41,802 nucleotides of DNA from a virus (IMGVR_UViG_3300017773_000030:1-41802), one strand, 5' to 3'. Numbered from the stretch's first letter, positions 23,589 through 41,802 are shown. Translations and numbers: made by a program. The notes: a model not told the origin generated them from the sequence alone.

Positions 23589-23882
23589 ATGGATAATCCT
23601 TTAGCAAAATTATATAGTTGGCAAATATCAAGTGGTCAGCTAGATGGGTGGACTTCATATCATTTAGCGGCTGGTTTGTTTATTGCTAAAATAGCACAAT
23701 GGTTAGGTGCTACTGATTTGTGGGCTGTACTTTGGGTATTGATTATAGGTATAGCTTGGGAAATTTTTGAAGTATTCGTAGAGGGAACAGAAGAAACCTA
23801 CGGAACAAAAAAGAAATGGGCATATAATACAGCGGCAGATGTTTTTGTTGAAACAGCAGCTGCAGCTTGGATGGTATGGTAA
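23589..23882 (+). CDS. Small polytopic membrane protein, H...E...D type
   Basis: A 97-residue protein with two or three hydrophobic segments (about residues 22-40, 42-62 and 80-97). Conserved-looking polar residues sit at the membrane edges: His25 in YHLAAG, Glu in WEIFEVF and Asn/Asp in YNTAADVF. The gene product at 26509 has the same pattern (LHFMGG, KELYDVY, SNKDALA), so the two are distant paralogues. The pattern also recalls small membrane proteins of the YfiM/VanZ-like kind. A holin-like role is possible but not supported by any specific motif. A clear AGGAG Shine-Dalgarno precedes the ATG. It opens the envelope island. Confidence 0.7.
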   Translation: MDNPLAKLYSWQISSGQLDGWTSYHLAAGLFIAKIAQWLGATDLWAVLWVLIIGIAWEIFEVFVEGTEETYGTKKKWAYNTAADVFVETAAAAWMVW

Positions 23883-23907
23883 ATTAAAAACTATTAGGAG
23901 AAAACAG

Positions 23908-25203
23908 ATGTTAAAGAAAATAATAATAGGGATACTACTATCCTCATCTTTGTTTAGTCAGAACTTTTTTACTAACTTTTTTAAGTATTCAACAGCTTAT
24001 TCAAGTTTTAGTTTAAATGCTCCTCGCTATCAAGATGATAGATTTGCTATCATTGGTGGGTTATCTACTGGTGTGTTGCAAGTGGAACGAACTGAAAGAG
24101 AATTAAAACCTGATTTTCAAACATCATTTGGACTTCGTAAGATTGGTAGATTTCAATACGAACCAAAGAGGGGTGTAAAGTCTGCTGGTAAAGGTGGGAC
24201 TTGGTATGATGGTTCAGAACAAAATGCTAATGAAAGTTCTACATTTGGTCCTGTTAAAGGTTGGGAGTATTTAATAAAATTTTCTGAAGGAAGACAATGG
24301 GGTAACGAATATCTTAATCAAGAATATTGGGTGAGATACATCGGTGATTGGGTTATGGCAAAAGTTGGTTGGACTGAATTAGGTCTTGAAGATATATCCT
24401 ATGGACAAGGTGATATTAGAGTTCATCTTACACCAGAAGCTCTTGGAAACAAACTACATTTTTCTATTGGACTAAAACATAGACAACATCCTGTATATGG
24501 ATTTGACGCTATGGTTCTTGATACCACTTGGTATAAAGGGCAATGGTGGAACTTTGCTGAAGATGCTTTTGGTATCGATGATAATATGTGGTTTGATTCA
24601 ACTATGATTAATCCTGACTCTCCTACAGGTTGGGATAGTAGAACACTTTATGAAGTAGATCCTGAAACAGGTGAGATTAGGGAAGTAGAAGGTTCTGGTC
24701 CGTTTTGGAATGAAGGCGGTGAGTATTGGGGACATGATTGGTTATGGAGAGGTGTTGATGGTAAGATATTTGCTTATACAGATAGGGAATATTTTGTATA
24801 CCACTTTCCAAGAATGTTAGAAAAATACATAGGTGGTGTAAAGAAAAATTTAGGTTATCAAAGTGAAACATCATTAGTTATTGGTGTTGATTGGTATCAC
24901 TATGGAGATAGTTGGTGGATACATGGTTGGGGTAATTGGTTACCTGTTCATTATGGTCACTCAAAACATGCGTACCATAATGCTGCTCATTATCAAACTC
25001 ATTTAGAAGAGGGTGGTGAAGCAAGTGATTTTATGTATATGGATCCAATGTGGCATGATTGGAATGATTATGATATTGGTGCTATCTTAGGTGTAAAAAT
25101 AAAAGAAAACTTAGGAGTCTTCACAGAAGGTCGTTATCTATATTATTGGGAAAGACCAGCATACGATATTAAATTTGGTCTTAATTATCAATTCTTAAAC
25201 TAG
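23908..25203 (+). CDS. Exported, probable outer-membrane beta-barrel protein
   Basis: A 431-residue protein with a standard signal peptide (MLKKIIIGILLSSSLFS, then Gln). The mature part has many alternating aromatic strands and ends in a beta-barrel-like C-terminus (FGLNYQFLN). It is unusually rich in Trp, Tyr and His; around residues 325-370 His-rich runs (GVDWYHYGDSWWIHGWGNW, HYGHSKHAYHNAAHYQTH) could bind metal. The ATG at 23908 is chosen over 23839 because AGGAG lies 8 bases before it and the signal peptide starts there. A signal peptide means the protein is exported by the infected cell rather than built into the virion. It may alter the host surface, for example by masking a receptor. 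Barrel topology and function are inferred. Confidence 0.7.
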   Translation: MLKKIIIGILLSSSLFSQNFFTNFFKYSTAYSSFSLNAPRYQDDRFAIIGGLSTGVLQVERTERELKPDFQTSFGLRKIGRFQYEPKRGVKSAGKGGTWYDGSEQNANESSTFGPVKGWEYLIKFSEGRQWGNEYLNQEYWVRYIGDWVMAKVGWTELGLEDISYGQGDIRVHLTPEALGNKLHFSIGLKHRQHPVYGFDAMVLDTTWYKGQWWNFAEDAFGIDDNMWFDSTMINPDSPTGWDSRTLYEVDPETGEIREVEGSGPFWNEGGEYWGHDWLWRGVDGKIFAYTDREYFVYHFPRMLEKYIGGVKKNLGYQSETSLVIGVDWYHYGDSWWIHGWGNWLPVHYGHSKHAYHNAAHYQTHLEEGGEASDFMYMDPMWHDWNDYDIGAILGVKIKENLGVFTEGRYLYYWERPAYDIKFGLNYQFLN

Positions 25204-25206
25204 GAG
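25202..25206 (+). promoter_or_regulatory. Ribosome binding site of the Cys-rich peptide
   Basis: AGGAG overlaps the stop codon of the preceding gene (TAGGAG). An ATG at 25207 touches it directly, but the in-frame ATG at 25213 has proper spacing (6 bases), which decides the start of the 16-residue peptide. The next gene repeats the arrangement: its TAGGAG (25261-25266) overlaps the peptide stop. Confidence 0.7.
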
Positions 25207-25212
25207 ATGATT

Positions 25213-25263
25213 ATGTGTGACTGTTGTGGATGTGATTGTGATTGTAATTGTAAATGTAACTAG
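25213..25263 (+). CDS. 16-residue Cys-rich peptide, metallothionein-like
   Basis: The frame ATG TGT GAC TGT TGT ... AAC TAG encodes MCDCCGCDCDCNCKCN, in which eight of sixteen residues are Cys, arranged as CxCC followed by repeated CxC. This Cys density is what metallothioneins and phytochelatins use to bind soft metal ions (Zn, Cu, Cd) in thiolate clusters. The gene has its own Shine-Dalgarno, starts 10 bases after the previous stop, and its stop carries the next gene's Shine-Dalgarno, exactly like its larger neighbours. That spacing argues against chance. There is no signal peptide. Metal binding is an inference; a redox buffer, an inhibitor of a host enzyme or a leader peptide sensing Cys supply are alternatives. 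I know of no named family. Confidence 0.55.
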   Translation: MCDCCGCDCDCNCKCN

Positions 25264-25272
25264 GAGATTAAA

Positions 25273-25467
25273 ATGAAAAACATGCTAAAAGTAATGCTTT
25301 CTGCTGTAATTCTTTTTGCTGCTGTTCCTACTGCTAATGCTTCAGATATGAACATGGCTGGTATGGAAGAAGTAAAGAAGAAGAAAAAGAAGAAAGGCAA
25401 GAAGATTGGTAAAAAGGGAAAGAAAGCCAAAAAGGGTTTCTTTTCTAAAATCTTTGGCTCAAAGTAA
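25273..25467 (+). CDS. Exported Lys-rich cationic peptide
   Basis: A 64-residue precursor. Residues 1-23 are a textbook signal peptide with an Ala-x-Ala site (MKNMLKVMLSAVILFAAVPT, then ANA before Ser24). The mature 41 residues contain 17 Lys in runs (KKKKKKK, GKKIGKKGKKAKK) and end in an amphipathic GFFSKIFGSK. Such a peptide would sit in the periplasm or on the surface and bind polyanions (LPS, DNA, peptidoglycan) or perturb membranes. AGGAG lies 6 bases before the ATG. The next gene starts at the base after its stop. A role in lysis, surface charge change or DNA binding at the envelope is inferred; no family is recognised. Confidence 0.7.
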   Translation: MKNMLKVMLSAVILFAAVPTANASDMNMAGMEEVKKKKKKKGKKIGKKGKKAKKGFFSKIFGSK

Positions 25468-26115
25468 ATGAACGGTGACATCAAAATCGGTAAGTTGTTA
25501 TGTGATGAAGATATAATTACTAAAAGACAACTTAACAAAGCCTTACAAGTTCAAGTTAAGGGAGACAAACGAACTCTCGGTGAAATACTTGTAGATCAAG
25601 GGTTTTGCGATTTTGATGACATCACTAATGCATTGTTAGACCACGATTCTGATACTCAAAAGCACGAAGAGAAACAAGAAGAGATTCATCAAGAACCTAT
25701 AGAAATAAAACCTCAAGTAAAGGATATACCTCCTGTTGAACCAAAGAAAGAAGAACCAATAGAACTTTCTGAAGATAAAGTTATGGGAACTAAATTTTCT
25801 ATGTCAGTACAGACAATAGTTGGTTTGATTGCTTTAATATCCTCTGGTGTTGGTGGTTATTATATGTTACTCCAAGAAATAGAAGAAGCAAAAGAATTAC
25901 CAAAGATAGATATAGAATCAATTTTTGGAGATGAATATCCATCTAAACCGGATGGTCATAACTGGCCACGGTCTTATGAACAATATAAGAATCAAGTTGG
26001 AGGTCTACAAGAGGATATGGATGCCGTCTATGATATATTAGATGAGTATGAAGAAACTATAAAAGAATTACAAAAAGATATCAAAGACCTTGAACGAAGA
26101 AAAAGGGATAAGTAG
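25468..26115 (+). CDS. Membrane protein with GspE/PilB (MshEN-like) N-terminal domain
   Basis: A 215-residue protein. Residues 5-55 match the N-terminal domain of type II secretion/type IV pilus ATPases as two half-repeats: KIGKLLCDEDIITKRQLNKA then LGEILVDQGFCDFDDITNAL, the pattern LGxxLxxxGxIxxxxLxxAL of GspE-N/MshEN domains, some of which bind cyclic di-GMP. An acidic Pro/Glu linker follows (about 60-110). Residues about 112-135 are one membrane helix (VQTIVGLIALISSGVGGYYM). The C-terminus ends in a coiled coil (DEYEETIKELQKDIKDLE). There is no ATPase domain. Standing a few hundred bases before four pilin genes, it could dock on the host pilus or secretion platform as a decoy or adaptor. 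The link between the half-repeats is short, so ligand binding is uncertain. Confidence 0.7.
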   Translation: MNGDIKIGKLLCDEDIITKRQLNKALQVQVKGDKRTLGEILVDQGFCDFDDITNALLDHDSDTQKHEEKQEEIHQEPIEIKPQVKDIPPVEPKKEEPIELSEDKVMGTKFSMSVQTIVGLIALISSGVGGYYMLLQEIEEAKELPKIDIESIFGDEYPSKPDGHNWPRSYEQYKNQVGGLQEDMDAVYDILDEYEETIKELQKDIKDLERRKRDK

Positions 26116-26124
26116 GAGTTTGTT

Positions 26125-26499
26125 ATGAAACACATATTGAAGCTATCATTATTTCTTTCTGTTATATTTGGACAGGTAAATGATAAAAACTTTAAATCAG
26201 AAGTAAATGGTGGGATAGTAGTTGCTATCTTTTCTTCTGAATGGCAAGAACAAGATTTAGATGAAAAGATATTAAAAGGTGTTAAAGGATATCAAGATTG
26301 TAAAATTATTAGAGTCAAAAGTGAGAATGCTCCTAAAGTTGTGAAAAAATTAAGGTTTAGAAACTTTCCATCAATGGCATTATTCTATGATGGTAGTAAA
26401 AAAGAAACTTGGAAGGCTGACATGGATGGTGAGTTGGATGTTAGTAATAAAGATATAAAAGGTGCTATTGACGATGTTTTATCAGAAGATGTATTTTAG
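26125..26499 (+). CDS. Exported thioredoxin-like protein without CxxC
   Basis: A 124-residue protein with a signal peptide (MKHILKLSLFLSVIFG, then Gln) and a thioredoxin-like fold. The strand GGIVVAIFSSEW stands where thioredoxins have the strand before their active site, but the CxxC is replaced by QEQD. The cis-Pro loop is kept (FRNFPSMALFYDG), with the usual strand and helix after it. Without the cysteines it cannot be an oxidoreductase, so it is more likely a binding module in the periplasm. AGGAG precedes the ATG. It sits between the GspE-N-like gene and a small membrane protein. The thioredoxin assignment rests on pattern only. Confidence 0.65.
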   Translation: MKHILKLSLFLSVIFGQVNDKNFKSEVNGGIVVAIFSSEWQEQDLDEKILKGVKGYQDCKIIRVKSENAPKVVKKLRFRNFPSMALFYDGSKKETWKADMDGELDVSNKDIKGAIDDVLSEDVF

Positions 26500-26508
26500 G
26501 AAAAAGTA

Positions 26509-26775
26509 ATGAGTAAATTTAATGATTTTATGTTACAATGGGGAACGGATAAGTTCTTACACTTTATGGGTGGTGCAGCTGTATATGGTATTACCGAATC
26601 GTGGATAGTAATGTTGATAGTTTCATTTGGTAAAGAACTATATGATGTTTATTATGCAACAAGTGGATGGAGTAATAAAGACGCTTTAGCAACAATGTTG
26701 GGTGGTTTATTTACATTTGTAGGTATAATTTTTTGGGAATTAGTTACAGAAAAATTACCATTTGTAATATATTGA
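26509..26775 (+). CDS. Small polytopic membrane protein, H...E...D type
   Basis: An 88-residue membrane protein with hydrophobic segments at about residues 20-45 and 60-85. The polar pattern DKFLHFMGG, GKELYDVYY, SNKDALATMLGG resembles the YfiM/VanZ-like small membrane proteins, and the gene product at 23589 shares H..AG, E[IL][FY][ED]V[FY] and N..A. It is the last gene before a strong terminator, closing the first half of the envelope island. Function unknown; a membrane chaperone, holin-like or exclusion protein are possibilities. Confidence 0.7.
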   Translation: MSKFNDFMLQWGTDKFLHFMGGAAVYGITESWIVMLIVSFGKELYDVYYATSGWSNKDALATMLGGLFTFVGIIFWELVTEKLPFVIY

Positions 26776-26803
26776 TACACTTTGTAACAAGTGTAACATT
26801 TTG

Positions 26804-26837
26804 AAAACCTCATTTTTAAATGGGGTTTTTTTTATTT
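26804..26837 (+). terminator. Strong intrinsic terminator
   Basis: AAAACCTCATT pairs with AATGGGGTTTT in an 11-bp stem (one G-U pair) around a 4-base loop, then the T-run continues (TTTTATTT). It lies 29 bases after the stop at 26775 and ends the transcription unit of tail-fibre and envelope genes. The stem's A-run opposite the T-run also makes a usable terminator on the other strand. Confidence 0.85.
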
Positions 26838-26899
26838 GTCGTAAGTTTAACAATATCAACATAAATAAAAAAATAAAAAAAAATTTGTAAAATAACAGT

Positions 26900-26930
26900 T
26901 TGTGGTACAGTTATTGTACTATATAGTATA
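26900..26930 (+). promoter_or_regulatory. Promoter with overlapping palindromes before the pilin genes
   Basis: A sigma70-like -10 TATAGT (26922-26927) lies 16 bases after a weak -35 TTGTGG (26900-26905), giving a start near 26934. Two dyads overlap it: GTACA-N5-TGTAC (26905-26919) and the perfect 12-bp palindrome TACTATATAGTA (26917-26928). They are well placed for a repressor that blocks polymerase. The unit therefore looks host-RNA-polymerase driven and regulated, separate from the tail genes upstream. Confidence 0.5.
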
Positions 26931-26951
26931 GAACAACTAACGGAGACAAAA

Positions 26952-27587
26952 ATGTTTTCAAAATTAAGAAAAAAACTAAAAGGCAGAAGTGGACAGTCAC
27001 TTGCCGAATTCGCAGTAACAACTGCTATGATGGCAACACTTGCTACTACTGCTGCACCAAAATTCTCTGGTGTTGGAGAAGGTGCAAAAGAGAAGAAAAC
27101 TCTTGCTGACATTGATAAAATTGTTAAATCAGCAAATAATTTCTATAACGCTAGAGTAACTGATGAAGGTCGTGGTCGTTTTCCTGGTCAAATCAAATAC
27201 AACCGTTCTGTTCCAGATGATGCTGGATATGGAGATGAAGATGAACTTATTGCTGGTTTAGAAACTTTTGTAACATTTGAAAGTGCAGAAGCATCTAAGT
27301 GGGCGTCTATTTTTGGAACAAATAATCCAGAATCTCCAATGCCTACTGGTGCTACTGTAAATACAATTGAAGATCCAGATGACGATGGTTCTTTTTCTAT
27401 AACTGTCGGAGCTGAAGAATTTTTAGATGAATTTGGTGGCAACGCTGTTAAATCACCATTTCAGGATGGTCATTACATTTATACAATAATTGCTGGTGGT
27501 GGGAGTGGACAACAATCTTACTCACCAATTTTGTATGTTGCAGATTTGGAAAGTCCAAAGAACTTTAAGAAAAAACTACAACCTTAA
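26952..27587 (+). CDS. Prepilin-like protein 1 (atypical, Q at +1)
   Basis: A 211-residue protein with a basic leader (MFSKLRKKLKGRSG) followed by QSLAEFAVTTAMMATLATTA and APKFSG. Gly14 would be the -1 residue and Glu19 the conserved +5 Glu of type IV prepilins; Gln at +1 is unusual but tolerated in some minor pilins, and the QSLAEFA string also recalls TadE-like proteins. After the hydrophobic helix comes the usual amphipathic stretch (KTLADIDKIVKSANNFYN) and a C-terminal globular domain. A GGAG Shine-Dalgarno and the palindromic promoter precede it. Maturation would need the host prepilin peptidase. It is the longest of the four and could be a tip or major subunit. Confidence 0.75.
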   Translation: MFSKLRKKLKGRSGQSLAEFAVTTAMMATLATTAAPKFSGVGEGAKEKKTLADIDKIVKSANNFYNARVTDEGRGRFPGQIKYNRSVPDDAGYGDEDELIAGLETFVTFESAEASKWASIFGTNNPESPMPTGATVNTIEDPDDDGSFSITVGAEEFLDEFGGNAVKSPFQDGHYIYTIIAGGGSGQQSYSPILYVADLESPKNFKKKLQP

Positions 27588-27606
27588 CCTTAATAGGAGA
27601 ATTAAA

Positions 27607-28050
27607 ATGTTTAATAAAATAAAAAATAAAGAGGGTTTTACCCTAATAGAATTAATAATGGTAACCATTATCTTAGGTATTCTAGCAGCAGTAGCAGTTC
27701 CAAGATACATGGGAACTGTATCTAACGCTGAAGCAGCAGTTGAAGATGCTATAGTTGGTTCAATTGAAGCTGGTCTTGGAGCATACGCTATCGAACAGAT
27801 GTTTGAAAATGGTCGTAAGAGTTGGCCAGACAATCCTTGGGATGGATTAGATCAAGTACCTACTAGTTATGATTCAACTGATGTTGATAATGCTGACTCC
27901 GATGATGAGTGGACATTTAATACCACCACTAATAAAATTACTCACCAAAGAAGAGATAACACTCGTTGGGGGTGGTCTTATGACAAAGGTGTACAAACTG
28001 GTGATAATGCCGATGTAGGTTCTATCGGTGAAAGAACACTAATTCAGTAA
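27607..28050 (+). CDS. Prepilin-like protein 2 (type IV pilin/GspG-type)
   Basis: A 147-residue protein with a canonical class III signal: leader MFNKIKNKEG, cleavage before Phe11, then FTLIELIMVTIILGILAAVA and VPRYMG, with Glu15 at +5 and Pro at about +22. The globular part is short and Trp/Asp-rich (KSWPDNPWDGLDQVP, DEWTFNTTTNK), resembling GspG/pilin C-terminal domains. The ATG at 27607 is fixed by AGGAGA seven bases upstream; the frame is open further upstream, but there it lies within the previous gene. Normally such proteins are assembled into pili or pseudopili by a PilB/GspE-type motor, which this window lacks. Confidence 0.88.
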   Translation: MFNKIKNKEGFTLIELIMVTIILGILAAVAVPRYMGTVSNAEAAVEDAIVGSIEAGLGAYAIEQMFENGRKSWPDNPWDGLDQVPTSYDSTDVDNADSDDEWTFNTTTNKITHQRRDNTRWGWSYDKGVQTGDNADVGSIGERTLIQ

Positions 28051-28070
28051 TTCTACATAGGAGAAAAGCT

Positions 28071-28514
28071 ATGAGAAACTCTAAGGGTTTCACATTAGCT
28101 GAGTTAGTTGTTGTTGTTGCTTTGATGGGAGTGCTTGTATCATTTGCACTCCCAACATACCAATCTACCGTAATGGAAACACAACATCAAATTAATCAAA
28201 CCAATATGATAATTATAAAACAAACATTTATGAGATATTGGTTAGAAGGACACATGAAAGGAAATCCACAATTTCCACCTAAGTCTGATAATGATAAAAT
28301 TGACGAAGCTTATGGGGACAAATTACTTTTTGATGGAAGAGTTGTCTCTGATTTATTTAGTGGAGATTTGCCTTTAAATTCTAATAATAACCCATTTTAT
28401 TATTATACAGAAACCGATACTTCTGAATATGATTTAGTTACATATAGAATAATTATAGTTGACGAGGATGAAGATAGTCCATCGTACTTAGAGGAAGTAG
28501 TCGGAGAAAATTAG
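28071..28514 (+). CDS. Prepilin-like protein 3
   Basis: A 147-residue protein with a very short leader (MRNSKG) and the class III motif GFTLAELVVVVALMGVLVSF then ALPTYQS; Glu11 is the +5 Glu. The C-terminal domain contains a short Pro-rich loop (NPQFPPKSDND) and ends acidic (VDEDEDSPSYLEEV). A TAGGAG Shine-Dalgarno precedes the ATG. The next gene starts at the last base of its stop. By size and order it resembles a minor pseudopilin. Confidence 0.85.
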   Translation: MRNSKGFTLAELVVVVALMGVLVSFALPTYQSTVMETQHQINQTNMIIIKQTFMRYWLEGHMKGNPQFPPKSDNDKIDEAYGDKLLFDGRVVSDLFSGDLPLNSNNNPFYYYTETDTSEYDLVTYRIIIVDEDEDSPSYLEEVVGEN

Positions 28515-28924
28515 TGAAAAATGGATTTACTTTTATAGAATTAATTATGGTAGTATTGGTGATTGGTATATTAGCAACACTTTCACTACCTAAAATAGAA
28601 AGAAAATTTGAATTAGATTTACTTCGTTTAGAAAAAAAATTTTTAAATAATTTATGGAGTGATTTAGAAGATTACGCTGAATATGAATTAGAAAATAACG
28701 GAGTTGATAAATGGCCATTTAATCCATTAACTGTTGCTGGTAGAGTGCGAGGGTATACAATAAATTTAACAGAAGGTTTACCGACAAAAGACAATGAATG
28801 GACTTTTTACAACCATCAAACCACAGGACCTGCTGTGTTCTTTAGGAGAATGAATAATGAAATCATTTACTATCCATATGATTCTACTGATTTTTATCTT
28901 AGTGATTCCTCGCATAATTTATAG
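28514..28924 (+). CDS. Prepilin-like protein 4 (GTG start)
   Basis: A 136-residue protein starting with GTG at the last base of the previous stop, with GGAG in the preceding codons. The leader is only four residues (MKNG), followed by FTFIELIMVVLVIGILATLS and LPKIER, with Glu9 at +5. The globular part has DKWPFNPLTVAGRVRG and NEWTFYNHQTTGPAVFF, related in feel to protein 2. Its last 68 bases overlap the next gene in another frame. With the three genes before it, it forms a four-pilin cassette comparable in number to the minor pseudopilin set of type II secretion. Confidence 0.85.
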   Translation: MKNGFTFIELIMVVLVIGILATLSLPKIERKFELDLLRLEKKFLNNLWSDLEDYAEYELENNGVDKWPFNPLTVAGRVRGYTINLTEGLPTKDNEWTFYNHQTTGPAVFFRRMNNEIIYYPYDSTDFYLSDSSHNL

Positions 28925-29246
28925 TCAAGATGATATTGAAGAAGAACTTGATTTAGAAGCCATGTGGGAAAATACCATATGGAATGAAATTGAAGAAGTT
29001 ACTACGGTTGAATATGAAGTAGAAAAAGTAACTCAAGTTGCGGGTGTTCGTGGCGCTGAAGCAGAAGATGAAGCATTAGAACACTTATATTATAGAAGGT
29101 CAATGAAAGGATTGTCTAAGTTACAAATACAAAAAGCATTAGGTAAGCTAATAATCAGAAGAGAAAAAATGTCGGATGATGATAGTGATGCTAAAAAAAT
29201 AGATGGTTATATAGCTCAGCTAAAAATAAAATTGAAAAAAGTTTAA
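28857..29246 (+). CDS. Small exported helical protein
   Basis: A 129-residue protein with a signal peptide (MKSFTIHMILLIFILVIPRI, then IYS before Gln). The mature part is acidic at first (DDIEEELDLEAMWEN) and then basic and helical (SKLQIQKALGKLIIRREK), with no recognised domain. The ATG at 28857 lies inside the end of the fourth pilin gene, with AGGAG eight bases before it, so the overlap is real rather than an annotation artefact. It ends the pilin operon. A periplasmic partner or chaperone of the pilin-like proteins is the natural guess from context. Confidence 0.7.
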   Translation: MKSFTIHMILLIFILVIPRIIYSQDDIEEELDLEAMWENTIWNEIEEVTTVEYEVEKVTQVAGVRGAEAEDEALEHLYYRRSMKGLSKLQIQKALGKLIIRREKMSDDDSDAKKIDGYIAQLKIKLKKV

Positions 29247-37880: not shown

Positions 37881-40800
37881 ATGCCAGAATTATTTAGTCA
37901 AGTATTAGACCTCAAAGAAAAAGATGTATTCCTAGAAACTGAAATAAACGATAATTTATATTTCAGTATATCCGGATTACCTTCTAATTTAAGTTATGGA
38001 AAACATCCATTTGCTATAACTTATAATGATCCAAATAACCAACCACTTTTAAAAAACTTATCTAATATTGTTTTTGAATTTGTTGACTCTCGTGGAACTG
38101 TAATATTTTCTAATTTAGTAGATATATCAGAGCTAAGTGGAGCAGGTAATGGTTTTGTTTGGATAAAAAAAGATCCGCTAAGAACTGCTGATGAAATTGC
38201 AGACGGACCTGCTTTCTTTTATGTAATGGGTGAATTAGGTGGAAACGAAATACCAATGGAGTGGAGGGGGATATACAATGTAAGAACTACTTTTGTATAT
38301 GATATAAGAAAAGATTATCCAAACACATCACCATTACTTTTAAACTCACCCATTGATGTTCAGACAAATTTAAACATAAGTGAAAGTGTAGAATTTGATA
38401 ATGAAGATGATGTTTTTAAAAGAAGTTTTATTAATATCAATTTATCTAATTTACAAACTAATGGTGGTAAAATAGAATCTGTTGAGTTAGCATACAATGA
38501 GCAAAATGCTTTTACTGATGATTTTAATATAATAACAACTTATCCATTAACAAGTGGTTCATTTGAAACAATAGATTCAACAGCAACTTCTGGTTTAAAT
38601 CCGATAACAAATACAACTAAAATAGAAATACCAAAAGAATTTAGACGAGATACGCCAGTAAAATTTAGATTAAGATTTTTAAATACATCAAAACAATTAG
38701 CACAATATTTAGATGAAGATAGACAAGGGGAAATTGTAGAAGTTACATCATCATTTTTAAATTTTGAAGGAGCTCCTCTTTTTATTGAAAGAGAAGATAA
38801 TTTATTAAAGGGTTCAATGTTTACTGGTAATGCCGTTGGTAAAGGATTTGAACAATCAGGTAAAAATAGTGCCTTTTTAAAAACAGTAGATTATGAAGGT
38901 TTTAAAAGTGCTAGTTTAGAAAAAGGTAGTCCTGGAATAATGTTCTTTAGTGGTTCTGTATTGACATCGAGTGGTGATGACTATACTGGTATTGGTTTAG
39001 AATTAGTCGCTAATAGTGAAAGTTTTTTTAGATTTAGAAGTAATCCAAGTGTATTTGATGTAAGAGCTCAATCATTTTTTGTTGGATCAAAAGAGGTTCA
39101 GTTTATTAGTGGTAGTGGTGGTAATATAGAAATAAGTTCTTCTATTTTTCATTTAAATCCTTCTAATAATATCCTTAGTATTAGTGGTACTATTAAAGCA
39201 AATGCTGGTAATATTGGAGATTTTGAAATCATAGATGGAAAAATTAGTGGTAGTAATATTACTTTTGATGCAAATCGTTCACAAATATTTAAGACAGATC
39301 AAGGACCTGGTTCAGATGCTAGTGCTGCTTTTAACCAACTACGAGATGAATATTATATAGATTTTACACCAAGTAGTAGTAACGATCCTGTTGGTACAGA
39401 CTATTATATTAAAATGGGTCCTAATTTTATGGTTGATAAGAGTGGTATTCTTATTGCTAGTGGAGCTATATTTGAAGGGACTGTTAGTGCTAGTGCTGGT
39501 TTTCTTGGTGGGTTTGTAATAGAATCATCTTCAATTCGTTCAAGGGATTATTCTGTATCCATATCTGGATCACCAACTCCTAATGGATTTTTTATAAGTA
39601 GTTCTAATTTTAATGTAAAAGGTAATGGTAACATAACAGGTTCACAAGTTCTTTTTACTGGTGGAACAATAGGTGGTTTTGAATTATCATCAACTCAAAT
39701 TAATTCTACAAATGATAATTTAATACTAAAATCATCAGGACAAATAACTGCTTCAAATGCTCAGATTCAAGGAAAAATAACTGCTGAAACTGGTACTATC
39801 GGTGGGTTTAATATTGGAACTAATTTAGAATCAAGTGGTGGTACATTAAATCTTAAAGGTGGTACAGGCCAAATCACTGGTTCAAATGTATTATTTAGTG
39901 GTGGTACAATCGGTGGCTTTACTCTAAATGGTGGAGTAGGTCAGAGTAGTTTAATTGGTAAATCTGGAACAACTGAAAGATTCAGACTGGATTTACTGAG
40001 TGGAGAATTGTCAGTAAACGGTAACGATGCTTTCGGAATAACTTTAGGCGGTGATGCTTCTAGTGGTTACGAAGCAACAACTGGCACTAGTATACCAATA
40101 GTTTTAGCCACCGAAGAAGATGCTAGTAGGACTGTTGTTAGATTTGGTGATGCGAACCAATTTATTAAATTTGATAGTGGAGGAACACCAAAACTTTTTA
40201 TCAGTTCAAGTAATTACTTTTTAGGTGGTAGTTCACAATTTATAAGTGGTAGTGGTGGTAATATAGAAATCAGTTCAAGTAACTTCCATTTAGACAATCA
40301 AGGTAATGTTGATATGTCAGGAACTATTACTGCTACTGGTGGTGTGATTGGTGGATTTACTATAAATTCTGATAATTTAACAGCAACAAACTTTGTATTA
40401 AATACAACAGACAAATCTTTATCTTTAGGTAGTGGAAATACAATTTTTATAGCAGATGCTGATGATGGAATACAATTAGGACATGCTACATTTGCTTCTG
40501 CTCCATTTAGTGTAACACCAGCTGGTGTTCTTAAAGCTACAAGTGGAACTATTGGTGGTTTTACATTAAGCAGTACACAAATTACATCAAATAATTTAAT
40601 AATAGATTCTGTAGGTATTTTGCAAACATCAAATTTTATTCCAAATTTAAGAGGTTGGAGAATTTCCTCCGAGGGTAATGGAAATGCGGAGTTTGAAAAT
40701 GTAAAAATTAGAGGCACTATTAGTACAGCTGTTTTTGAAAAAGAAACTATAAATGCTGTGGGTGGTCAATTATATGTTGCTAACTCGACTACTTTAACTG

Positions 40801-41802
40801 GTTCAGGACAAATATCTGAAAGTTTTGCTACAATGAGTGTTGCAAATGCAAGGGGATTTAAAGAAAATGAAATATTAAGTTTAAAGAAACAAACTAATAG
40901 TGGTTTTACTACAGAATATATTTTGGTTCAAAGCTCATCACTAGATAATGGTTCAAGTGATACTAATTTTGCTGGTAAATTATTTGTACAACGAGGGTAT
41001 GGACATGGAGTAACTGGTAATAGTTCTTCATTAGGTGGGACACCAGCAAACTCACAATCCTATGAACCAGGACAAGTATTAGTTTCTACTGGCATAACAG
41101 GTAGTGGGTTCATAAGATTAAATGCAAATCCAAATGATACATCAACACCTTTTATAGATATTGTTGAAAGAACTGGTACTGGAATATACGATGTGGAATT
41201 AAAAACTAGAATAGGTGATTTATCAGGTGTGGCTGGAACACGAAATGTACCATCTGATTTTACTGGTTTTGGTTTGATGAGTGAGGTTGCTTTCTTATCA
41301 GGTTCTAATATTAAATTAGAAACACCAAGATTTTTACTTGGTGATTTGACCTCTGCTTTTGTTAGTGGTTCAAATGGAAACATAGAAATAAGTTCAAGTA
41401 ATTTTCATTTAACACCAGAAGGTAGTATAACAGCTTCAAAAGGTTTACTCGAAAATGTAAGAATTGTTGGTGGTGCTGCTGATAATACAATAACTCCTTT
41501 TGATTTTGCCAATCCAGGTTTTATCGGCGGTGGAAAATCAAATGAAATTTTGAATTCTAATAATTCATTTTTAGGTGGTGGACAACAAAATGAGATATCA
41601 AAATCCTCCGAATCAACGGTTGTTGGTGGGCAAAATAATAATATAAAGAATGGTTCTCTTTCATTTATTGGTGGTGGTATTTTTAACAAAATTACAGGTT
41701 CAAATCAATCTAGTATTGTAAGTGGAAAGGGAAATCATATTTGGTATTCCGATGATTCTGGAGTATTAAGTGGTGTTGGTAATGCAATATCGGCATCAGA
41801 TA
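37881..41802 (+). CDS. Giant beta-helical tail fibre, 3' end cut by the window
   Basis: An open frame from ATG at 37881 to the last base (about 1307 codons) without a stop. The first 320 residues are a globular attachment region (MPELFSQVLDLKEKDVFLE; IPKEFRRDTPVKFRLRF). Then comes a long Gly/Ser/Thr-rich shaft with many TIGGF repeats (about residues 530-900) and three copies of an FISGSGGNIEISSS-type block. From about residue 1212 the pattern changes to YadA-head-like repeats (FIGGGKSNEI, FLGGGQQNEI, VVGGQNNNI, FIGGGIFNKI), a left-handed beta-roll of adhesins. It is probably the main long tail fibre for host recognition. Real length and C-terminal chaperone or tip domain are outside the window. 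Confidence 0.8.
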   Translation, partial: MPELFSQVLDLKEKDVFLETEINDNLYFSISGLPSNLSYGKHPFAITYNDPNNQPLLKNLSNIVFEFVDSRGTVIFSNLVDISELSGAGNGFVWIKKDPLRTADEIADGPAFFYVMGELGGNEIPMEWRGIYNVRTTFVYDIRKDYPNTSPLLLNSPIDVQTNLNISESVEFDNEDDVFKRSFININLSNLQTNGGKIESVELAYNEQNAFTDDFNIITTYPLTSGSFETIDSTATSGLNPITNTTKIEIPKEFRRDTPVKFRLRFLNTSKQLAQYLDEDRQGEIVEVTSSFLNFEGAPLFIEREDNLLKGSMFTGNAVGKGFEQSGKNSAFLKTVDYEGFKSASLEKGSPGIMFFSGSVLTSSGDDYTGIGLELVANSESFFRFRSNPSVFDVRAQSFFVGSKEVQFISGSGGNIEISSSIFHLNPSNNILSISGTIKANAGNIGDFEIIDGKISGSNITFDANRSQIFKTDQGPGSDASAAFNQLRDEYYIDFTPSSSNDPVGTDYYIKMGPNFMVDKSGILIASGAIFEGTVSASAGFLGGFVIESSSIRSRDYSVSISGSPTPNGFFISSSNFNVKGNGNITGSQVLFTGGTIGGFELSSTQINSTNDNLILKSSGQITASNAQIQGKITAETGTIGGFNIGTNLESSGGTLNLKGGTGQITGSNVLFSGGTIGGFTLNGGVGQSSLIGKSGTTERFRLDLLSGELSVNGNDAFGITLGGDASSGYEATTGTSIPIVLATEEDASRTVVRFGDANQFIKFDSGGTPKLFISSSNYFLGGSSQFISGSGGNIEISSSNFHLDNQGNVDMSGTITATGGVIGGFTINSDNLTATNFVLNTTDKSLSLGSGNTIFIADADDGIQLGHATFASAPFSVTPAGVLKATSGTIGGFTLSSTQITSNNLIIDSVGILQTSNFIPNLRGWRISSEGNGNAEFENVKIRGTISTAVFEKETINAVGGQLYVANSTTLTGSGQISESFATMSVANARGFKENEILSLKKQTNSGFTTEYILVQSSSLDNGSSDTNFAGKLFVQRGYGHGVTGNSSSLGGTPANSQSYEPGQVLVSTGITGSGFIRLNANPNDTSTPFIDIVERTGTGIYDVELKTRIGDLSGVAGTRNVPSDFTGFGLMSEVAFLSGSNIKLETPRFLLGDLTSAFVSGSNGNIEISSSNFHLTPEGSITASKGLLENVRIVGGAADNTITPFDFANPGFIGGGKSNEILNSNNSFLGGGQQNEISKSSESTVVGGQNNNIKNGSLSFIGGGIFNKITGSNQSSIVSGKGNHIWYSDDSGVLSGVGNAISASD
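39102..41411 (+). repeat. Long-period repeat blocks in the fibre gene
   Basis: An 18-codon block encoding F(I/V)SGSxGNIEISSSxFHL occurs at 39102-39155, 40239-40292 and 41358-41411, spaced 379 and 373 codons apart. Shorter TIGGF units lie between the first two and beyond the second. The DNA of the blocks has diverged at silent positions, so the duplication is old, but it marks a repeated architecture of the fibre shaft. Confidence 0.75.

Follow-up and report, generated by a model that had tools for sequence, protein, structure and literature searches.

The window analysed here is a viral record of 41,802 nucleotides (IMGVR_UViG_3300017773_000030:1-41802), and the subject of this report is a row of genes at 23589-29246 that encodes four prepilin-like proteins next to a set of predicted envelope proteins. 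The same 41.8-kb record contains a late-sigma-like gene and a gp6-like baseplate gene and encodes a DnaG-type primase and an SbcCD-like protein; it is a fragment of a T4-like phage. The region lies 3' of the tail-region genes tA2-tA4 and 5' of the genes from 29285 onward. All open reading frames (ORFs) claimed in a first-pass annotation were found in place, and its count of ten larger genes and one micro-gene fell short of the actual 11 larger genes and one micro-gene. These genes form two modules, A and B (Table 1), not the single island that had been proposed.

Table 1. Features of the region 23589-29246 of the window (TM, transmembrane; aa, amino acids; nt, nucleotides)
Feature	Position	Strand	Description
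Module A	23589-26775	+	TM1, OMP, Cys-rich micropeptide, polyK, MshEN protein, Trx, TM2
TM1	23589..23882	+	Small membrane protein, 97 aa; 68-98% identity in relatives
OMP	23908..25203	+	Exported outer-membrane-type beta-rich protein, 431 aa
Cys-rich micropeptide	25213..25263	+	16 aa, MCDCCGCDCDCNCKCN; conserved family beside the OMP gene
polyK	25273..25467	+	64-aa peptide, signal peptide then Lys-rich tail
MshEN-domain protein	25468..26115	+	One TM segment, C-terminal coiled coil
MshEN domain	residues 6-56, nt 25483-25635	+	Profile match
Trx	26125..26499	+	Exported thioredoxin-fold protein, no CxxC, conserved RNFPS loop
TM2	26509..26775	+	88-aa membrane protein, last gene of module A
Intrinsic-terminator-like hairpin	26803-26830	+	12-bp stem then T-run, between modules A and B
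Module B	26952-29246	+	pil1, pil2, pil3, pil4, exp
pil1	26952..27587	+	Prepilin, G14/QSLAEF signal, E+5, P+22
pil2	27607..28050	+	GspG-like prepilin, G10/FTLIE, P+22
pil3	28071..28514	+	Prepilin, G6/FTLAE, P+22
pil4	28514..28924	+	Second pil2-type prepilin, G4/FTFIE, P+22
exp	28857..29246	+	Exported protein, near-invariant core VAGVRGAEAEDEAL

The division into two modules is evident from a comparison of 159 viral loci. The OMP gene was found 3' of tail-region genes in most loci holding upstream sequence, and the MshEN and Trx genes come after it in relatives, whereas pil1 to exp occupy either the position after module A or another one, frequently next to the late-sigma-like gene u4. Module B recurs as a unit, pil1-(pil2/3/4)-exp, in dozens of marine viral contigs, with pil1 and exp as its most constantly kept members, and modules A and B share one contig in several cases. 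Gene order is thus kept within each module while A and B move apart: a lack of conserved order, named beforehand as a reason to abandon the proposal, was not seen for either module by itself but does strike the single island, which is also interrupted by the terminator-like hairpin. The further idea of one system comprising all products loses support, since many relatives have module B far from module A, yet the two do co-occur in several contigs. Because these genes recur in many independent contigs and are under purifying selection, chance is excluded as their origin, and so is an assembly chimera, the other reason named beforehand. Pairwise ratios of nonsynonymous to synonymous substitution (dN/dS) were 0.08-0.6, below 1 for all module genes, although the values are rough because synonymous sites are often near saturation. 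They were low for OMP, Trx and pil1, higher for pil3, and highest for pil4 and exp. The module genes are under purifying selection.

The prepilin signals, counted on the sequence, are intact in all four pilins of module B, each with G-1, E+5 and P+22. The NCBIfam prepilin motif was matched above cut-off by pil2, pil3 and pil4, and the Pfam N_methyl profile by pil2 and pil3, with pil4 narrowly under (20.5 vs 21.2 bits). The description of four prepilin-like proteins therefore holds, three of the four matching an N-methylation profile; pil1 was missed by the Pfam and NCBIfam libraries and is recognized as a prepilin by its sequence signals and homology. In an AlphaFold model of pil1, of a quality too low to rely on (predicted local distance difference test, pLDDT, 65), three short strands accompany a long N-terminal helix, with no significant fold match in the PDB, and a sequence-profile search gave geopilin and MshA as weak top matches. 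The match of pil2 to the GspG profile (41.6 bits) is below the equivalog cut-off. The pil4 gene, whose GTG start overlaps the pil3 stop, encodes a protein 30% identical to the window's pil2. Many relatives (L127, L104, L069, L144) encode a longer exp of about 200 aa, which has an additional N-terminal stretch containing CDDTEYR.

A scan of a genome collection with the pil1 profile yielded 22 loci, mostly in single cells and metagenome-assembled genomes (MAGs) of SAR406 (Candidatus Neomarinimicrobiota). A few loci carried other names (Balneolaceae, Euryarchaeota, Alphaproteobacteria and Crocinitomicaceae MAGs); these may stem from erroneous binning or belong to phage contigs. In the better-covered SAR406 loci, genes for a prepilin peptidase, a T2SSE ATPase with an MshEN domain and T2SSF are followed by pil1-pil2-pil3 in the phage order, and the cluster also contains further (tip-type) pseudopilins, an AAA_22 ATPase, a T2SSB-like protein and a secretin. 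A homologous exp is located 21-27 kb downstream of pil1, and was found in 17 of 199 SAR406-phylum genomes. The window's pil1 is 76% identical to that of the SAR406 single cell AM-382-M06, and identities to host SAR406 proteins reach 59% for pil2, 41% for pil3 and 56% for exp. The host pilus/T2SS-like cluster (L163/L217/L218; L176/L219/L220) is homologous to, and partly co-linear with, the phage genes: it shares pil1-pil2-pil3 in the same order, exp and an MshEN domain, which there is part of the ATPase and in the phage is a separate membrane protein. The phage set differs in having no peptidase, ATPase, PilC, tip-type pseudopilins or secretin, in its pil4, a second pil2-type gene, and in exp following directly after the pilins. 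Earlier work has described viruses of SAR406 in general (PMC4533152). The gene homologies point to SAR406 (Marinimicrobia) as the likely host. In SAR406 itself, one contig (SGYO01000001.1, loci L176/L219; L219 11345-15239) has a tandem array of eight pil2-type pilins separating pil1 from pil3, and pil1 is often present in several paralogs (for example in L171); this multiplication suggests diversification of the host pilins.

Residues 17-38 of pil1 are nearly identical across 37 phage proteins and are common to the host SAR406 pil1. The N-terminal segment of type IV pilins packs in the filament core, so near-invariance shared with the host is expected if the phage pilins must fit the host filament, and the conservation may reflect such a fit. 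A role of the pilin-like proteins and exp in the phage particle or its release, and not at the host pilus, is suggested by the position of module B behind tail-region genes in the window's lineage. This possibility is highly improbable, as the module is located elsewhere in many relatives, and a virion would have no use for prepilin signals or for proteins homologous to those of a host pilus cluster.

Assembly machinery was searched for in 22 phage contigs, which are fragments. T2SSF and Peptidase_A24 gave no matches (for the window itself, the search covered the peptidase alone), and T2SSE gave none above cut-off, with weak sub-cut-off matches in 10 contigs. Two of these weak matches were inspected as candidates for a phage-coded assembly ATPase, and their sequences look like those of MoxR/CobS-type AAA+ proteins. 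A complete type IV pilus or type II secretion system (T2SS), with its own ATPase, PilC/GspF and peptidase, was accordingly not found in these contigs. The first-pass proposal that the products of the region act on the host pilus or secretion machinery can thus be kept in part: an action of the phage pilins on such a host machine is well supported for pil1-pil4 and exp, whose homologs lie in one SAR406 cluster; for the MshEN protein the evidence is suggestive; and for OMP, Trx, the TM proteins and the Cys- and Lys-rich products, which look phage-only and belong to a separate module, such an action is conjectural.

Taken together, these data are consistent with module B being an old, conserved phage cassette of host type IV pilus or pseudopilus subunits. 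During infection of SAR406-type bacteria, the phage would make pil1-pil4 and exp; the host prepilin peptidase would cleave the phage pilins, and the host MshEN-type ATPase and PilC platform would insert them into the host filament, which would become partly or wholly phage-specified. The likely gain would be that a surface structure used by competing phages is altered or masked (masking or exclusion). We give this reading, in which the host machine assembles the phage pilins and the filament is thereby altered, a probability of about 0.5. That a widespread lineage of marine T4-like phages supplies its own pilin set and exp to the SAR406 machine, so that infected cells show a phage-specified pilus on their surface, by replacement of the filament and not inhibition, is put forward more tentatively, at less than even odds. 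The host, expression, incorporation into the filament, benefit and any role of module A are all inferred from the gene sequences.

If the pseudopilus/T2SS-like machine of the host secretes useful proteins, the phage could instead supply subunits and exp to keep host secretion, attachment or nutrient uptake going during infection, in the manner of an auxiliary cassette. In the host, exp comes directly after genes for giant exported and outer-membrane-type proteins at the far end of the cluster region, the prepilin signals look functional, and constant retention of pil1 and exp would suit such a function. Nevertheless, this explanation is considered unlikely, because the window's cassette has no tip-type pseudopilins (host pil5-pil7) and there is no sign that filament subunits are limiting. 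At two host loci (L218 38-9386 and L220 6298-16717), the pilus cluster extends through a gene for a CHASE2-like protein to genes for a giant exported and an outer-membrane-type protein just before exp, and these proteins may be partners or cargo of the SAR406 machine.

The MshEN-domain protein of module A bears on a further explanation. NCBIfam NF053729, an MshE-related cyclic diguanylate (c-di-GMP) domain of 53 residues, was matched with 43.2 bits (cut-off 38), and PDB matches were to the N-termini of PilB, PilF and MshE, in agreement with the earlier assignment of a GspE/PilB N-terminal domain; the Pfam MshEN profile gave no match. Unlike the MshEN domains of MshE and PilB, that of the phage protein comes with a membrane anchor, no ATPase domain and a degenerate second motif. 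The published domain has two copies of the motif RLGxx(LVI)(LVI)xxG(LVI)(LVI)xxxxLxxxLxxQ (PMC5013675), and two intact copies were not found in the phage protein: motif 1 carries K in place of R and D in place of G, with both L and Q kept, and motif 2 is without R and the final Q. Because of these replacements and losses, binding of c-di-GMP is uncertain. In the main reading given above, the membrane-anchored protein may compete at the platform with the N-terminal domain of the extension ATPase. It could also belong to a mechanism in which phage pilins give dead-end or capped filaments, the pilus is lost and MshEN blocks motor docking, leading to superinfection exclusion. The resemblance of a stand-alone MshEN domain to PilB N-termini fits this mechanism, as does the arrival of the phage pilins without assembly machinery or tip subunits, and phages are known to exclude rivals via disabled type IV pili (PMC11656802, PMC8764522). 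Up to four pilins under purifying selection exceed the needs of a block, however, and the gene content is of lytic type whereas exclusion is best known from lysogens, making this mechanism rather improbable. Replacement of the filament, its supply with subunits and its blockage are not distinguishable by computation.

Several observations weigh against assembly of phage pilins by the SAR406 machine. The case for it is built from gene sequences, and SAR406 is assigned as host through homologous genes instead of CRISPR spacers or infected cells. No host pilin matched pil4 above about 33% identity, and because the relatives' contigs are fragments, pilus machinery could lie outside them. Type IV pilus modulators described in phages are small inhibitors, not pilins (PMC11656802, PMC8764522). 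With respect to history, the best pil1 tree placed host rows among phage rows, suggesting repeated host-phage exchange, which was not upheld by a restricted tree and an approximately unbiased (AU) test in which one phage clade was not rejected (p=0.47). The phage exp proteins group in a single clade that is separate from the host proteins (support 100, few columns), which fits long retention in phages. For pil1, the trees are compatible with more than one direction and number of transfers.

Module A is a separate envelope module that looks phage-specific. OMP was found at 79 viral loci (62-93% identity) and had no match in the 199 SAR406 genomes or in the contig scan of the genome collection; it is absent from 20 of the 21 genomes with pil1 matches, with a weak relative in the remaining one (G042, a MAG named Alphaproteobacteria). 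A signal-like N-terminus, many predicted beta-hairpins and an aromatic C-terminal strand (NYQF near the C-terminus) make an outer-membrane barrel plausible, but its AlphaFold model was of too low quality to rely on (pLDDT 42), and a Foldseek search gave no significant match. Some phages have two OMP copies (L072 10001-12250; the contig of L008/L144, G005). One 120-kb contig has an OMP match at either end; the pair was considered as a terminal repeat that would mark a complete genome, and is not such a repeat.

Beside OMP, the suspected Cys-rich micro-ORF was borne out as a conserved gene family. Such micropeptides adjoin OMP in 25 of 65 OMP loci (some on a shared contig), none on the minus strand, and agree in position, ribosome-binding site and composition: they are 14-43 aa long with CxC repeats and up to about 55% Cys, each gene being preceded by an AGGAG-like ribosome-binding site. 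Members were noted in the window and at L004, L008, L013, L014, L016, L035, L038 and L078. For polyK, minus-strand low-complexity matches were left out of the counts. The thioredoxin fold without CxxC also holds: the active site of a thioredoxin is absent in 22 of 22 aligned relatives, and one marginal Trx match was obtained in the 199 SAR406 genomes. TM2 has weak YfiM/DUF2279 similarity and was found in closest relatives only; its supposed relationship to TM1 was not detectable (BLASTP E=1, hhalign probability 0.6%). Matches of TM1, a protein of 97 aa, to heliorhodopsin are sub-threshold (22 bits) and were set aside. Elsewhere in the window, a large ORF at 37881-41801 runs off the contig end and has a weak sub-threshold match to the second domain of Mtd. 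The frequency of a late-promoter motif, TATAAATA, is not above chance, known defence genes and Rfam RNAs were not found, and the phage collection searched contained no close DNA relatives of the window.

How do these genes compare with known phage systems? No report of a multi-pilin phage cassette was found in the open-access literature searched. Phage-coded prepilin-like proteins are represented by PHROG 3433 "pilin" and by Vibrio phages 033B and GH32. The 033B gene (OP331229.1 39233-39706; L229 4001-4474), annotated as hypothetical, is located just before the terminase small subunit gene, its product is 30% identical to the window's pil2, and GH32 has a similar gene. In the stretch inspected, 033B contains a single pilin-like gene, whereas module B is an ordered cassette of up to four pilins and exp. 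These genes tie an abundant, undescribed marine phage group to SAR406 as its likely host and mark the pilus system of this uncultured lineage as a site of conflict or exchange between phage and host. The conserved exported protein exp, the phage-only envelope module and the Cys-rich micropeptide family have no described function. Peptides that target PilB or PilZ are among the known phage products directed at the type IV pilus, as is a pilus inhibitor from a filamentous phage (PMC11656802, PMC8764522). Tip, Aqs1, Zip and the Pf-phage inhibitor resemble module B, as proposed here, in being phage genes that act on the host type IV pilus; they are small cytoplasmic or membrane inhibitors, whereas the genes described here encode pilus subunits, which would provide a testable case of a phage manipulating the host pilus with subunits instead of an inhibitor.

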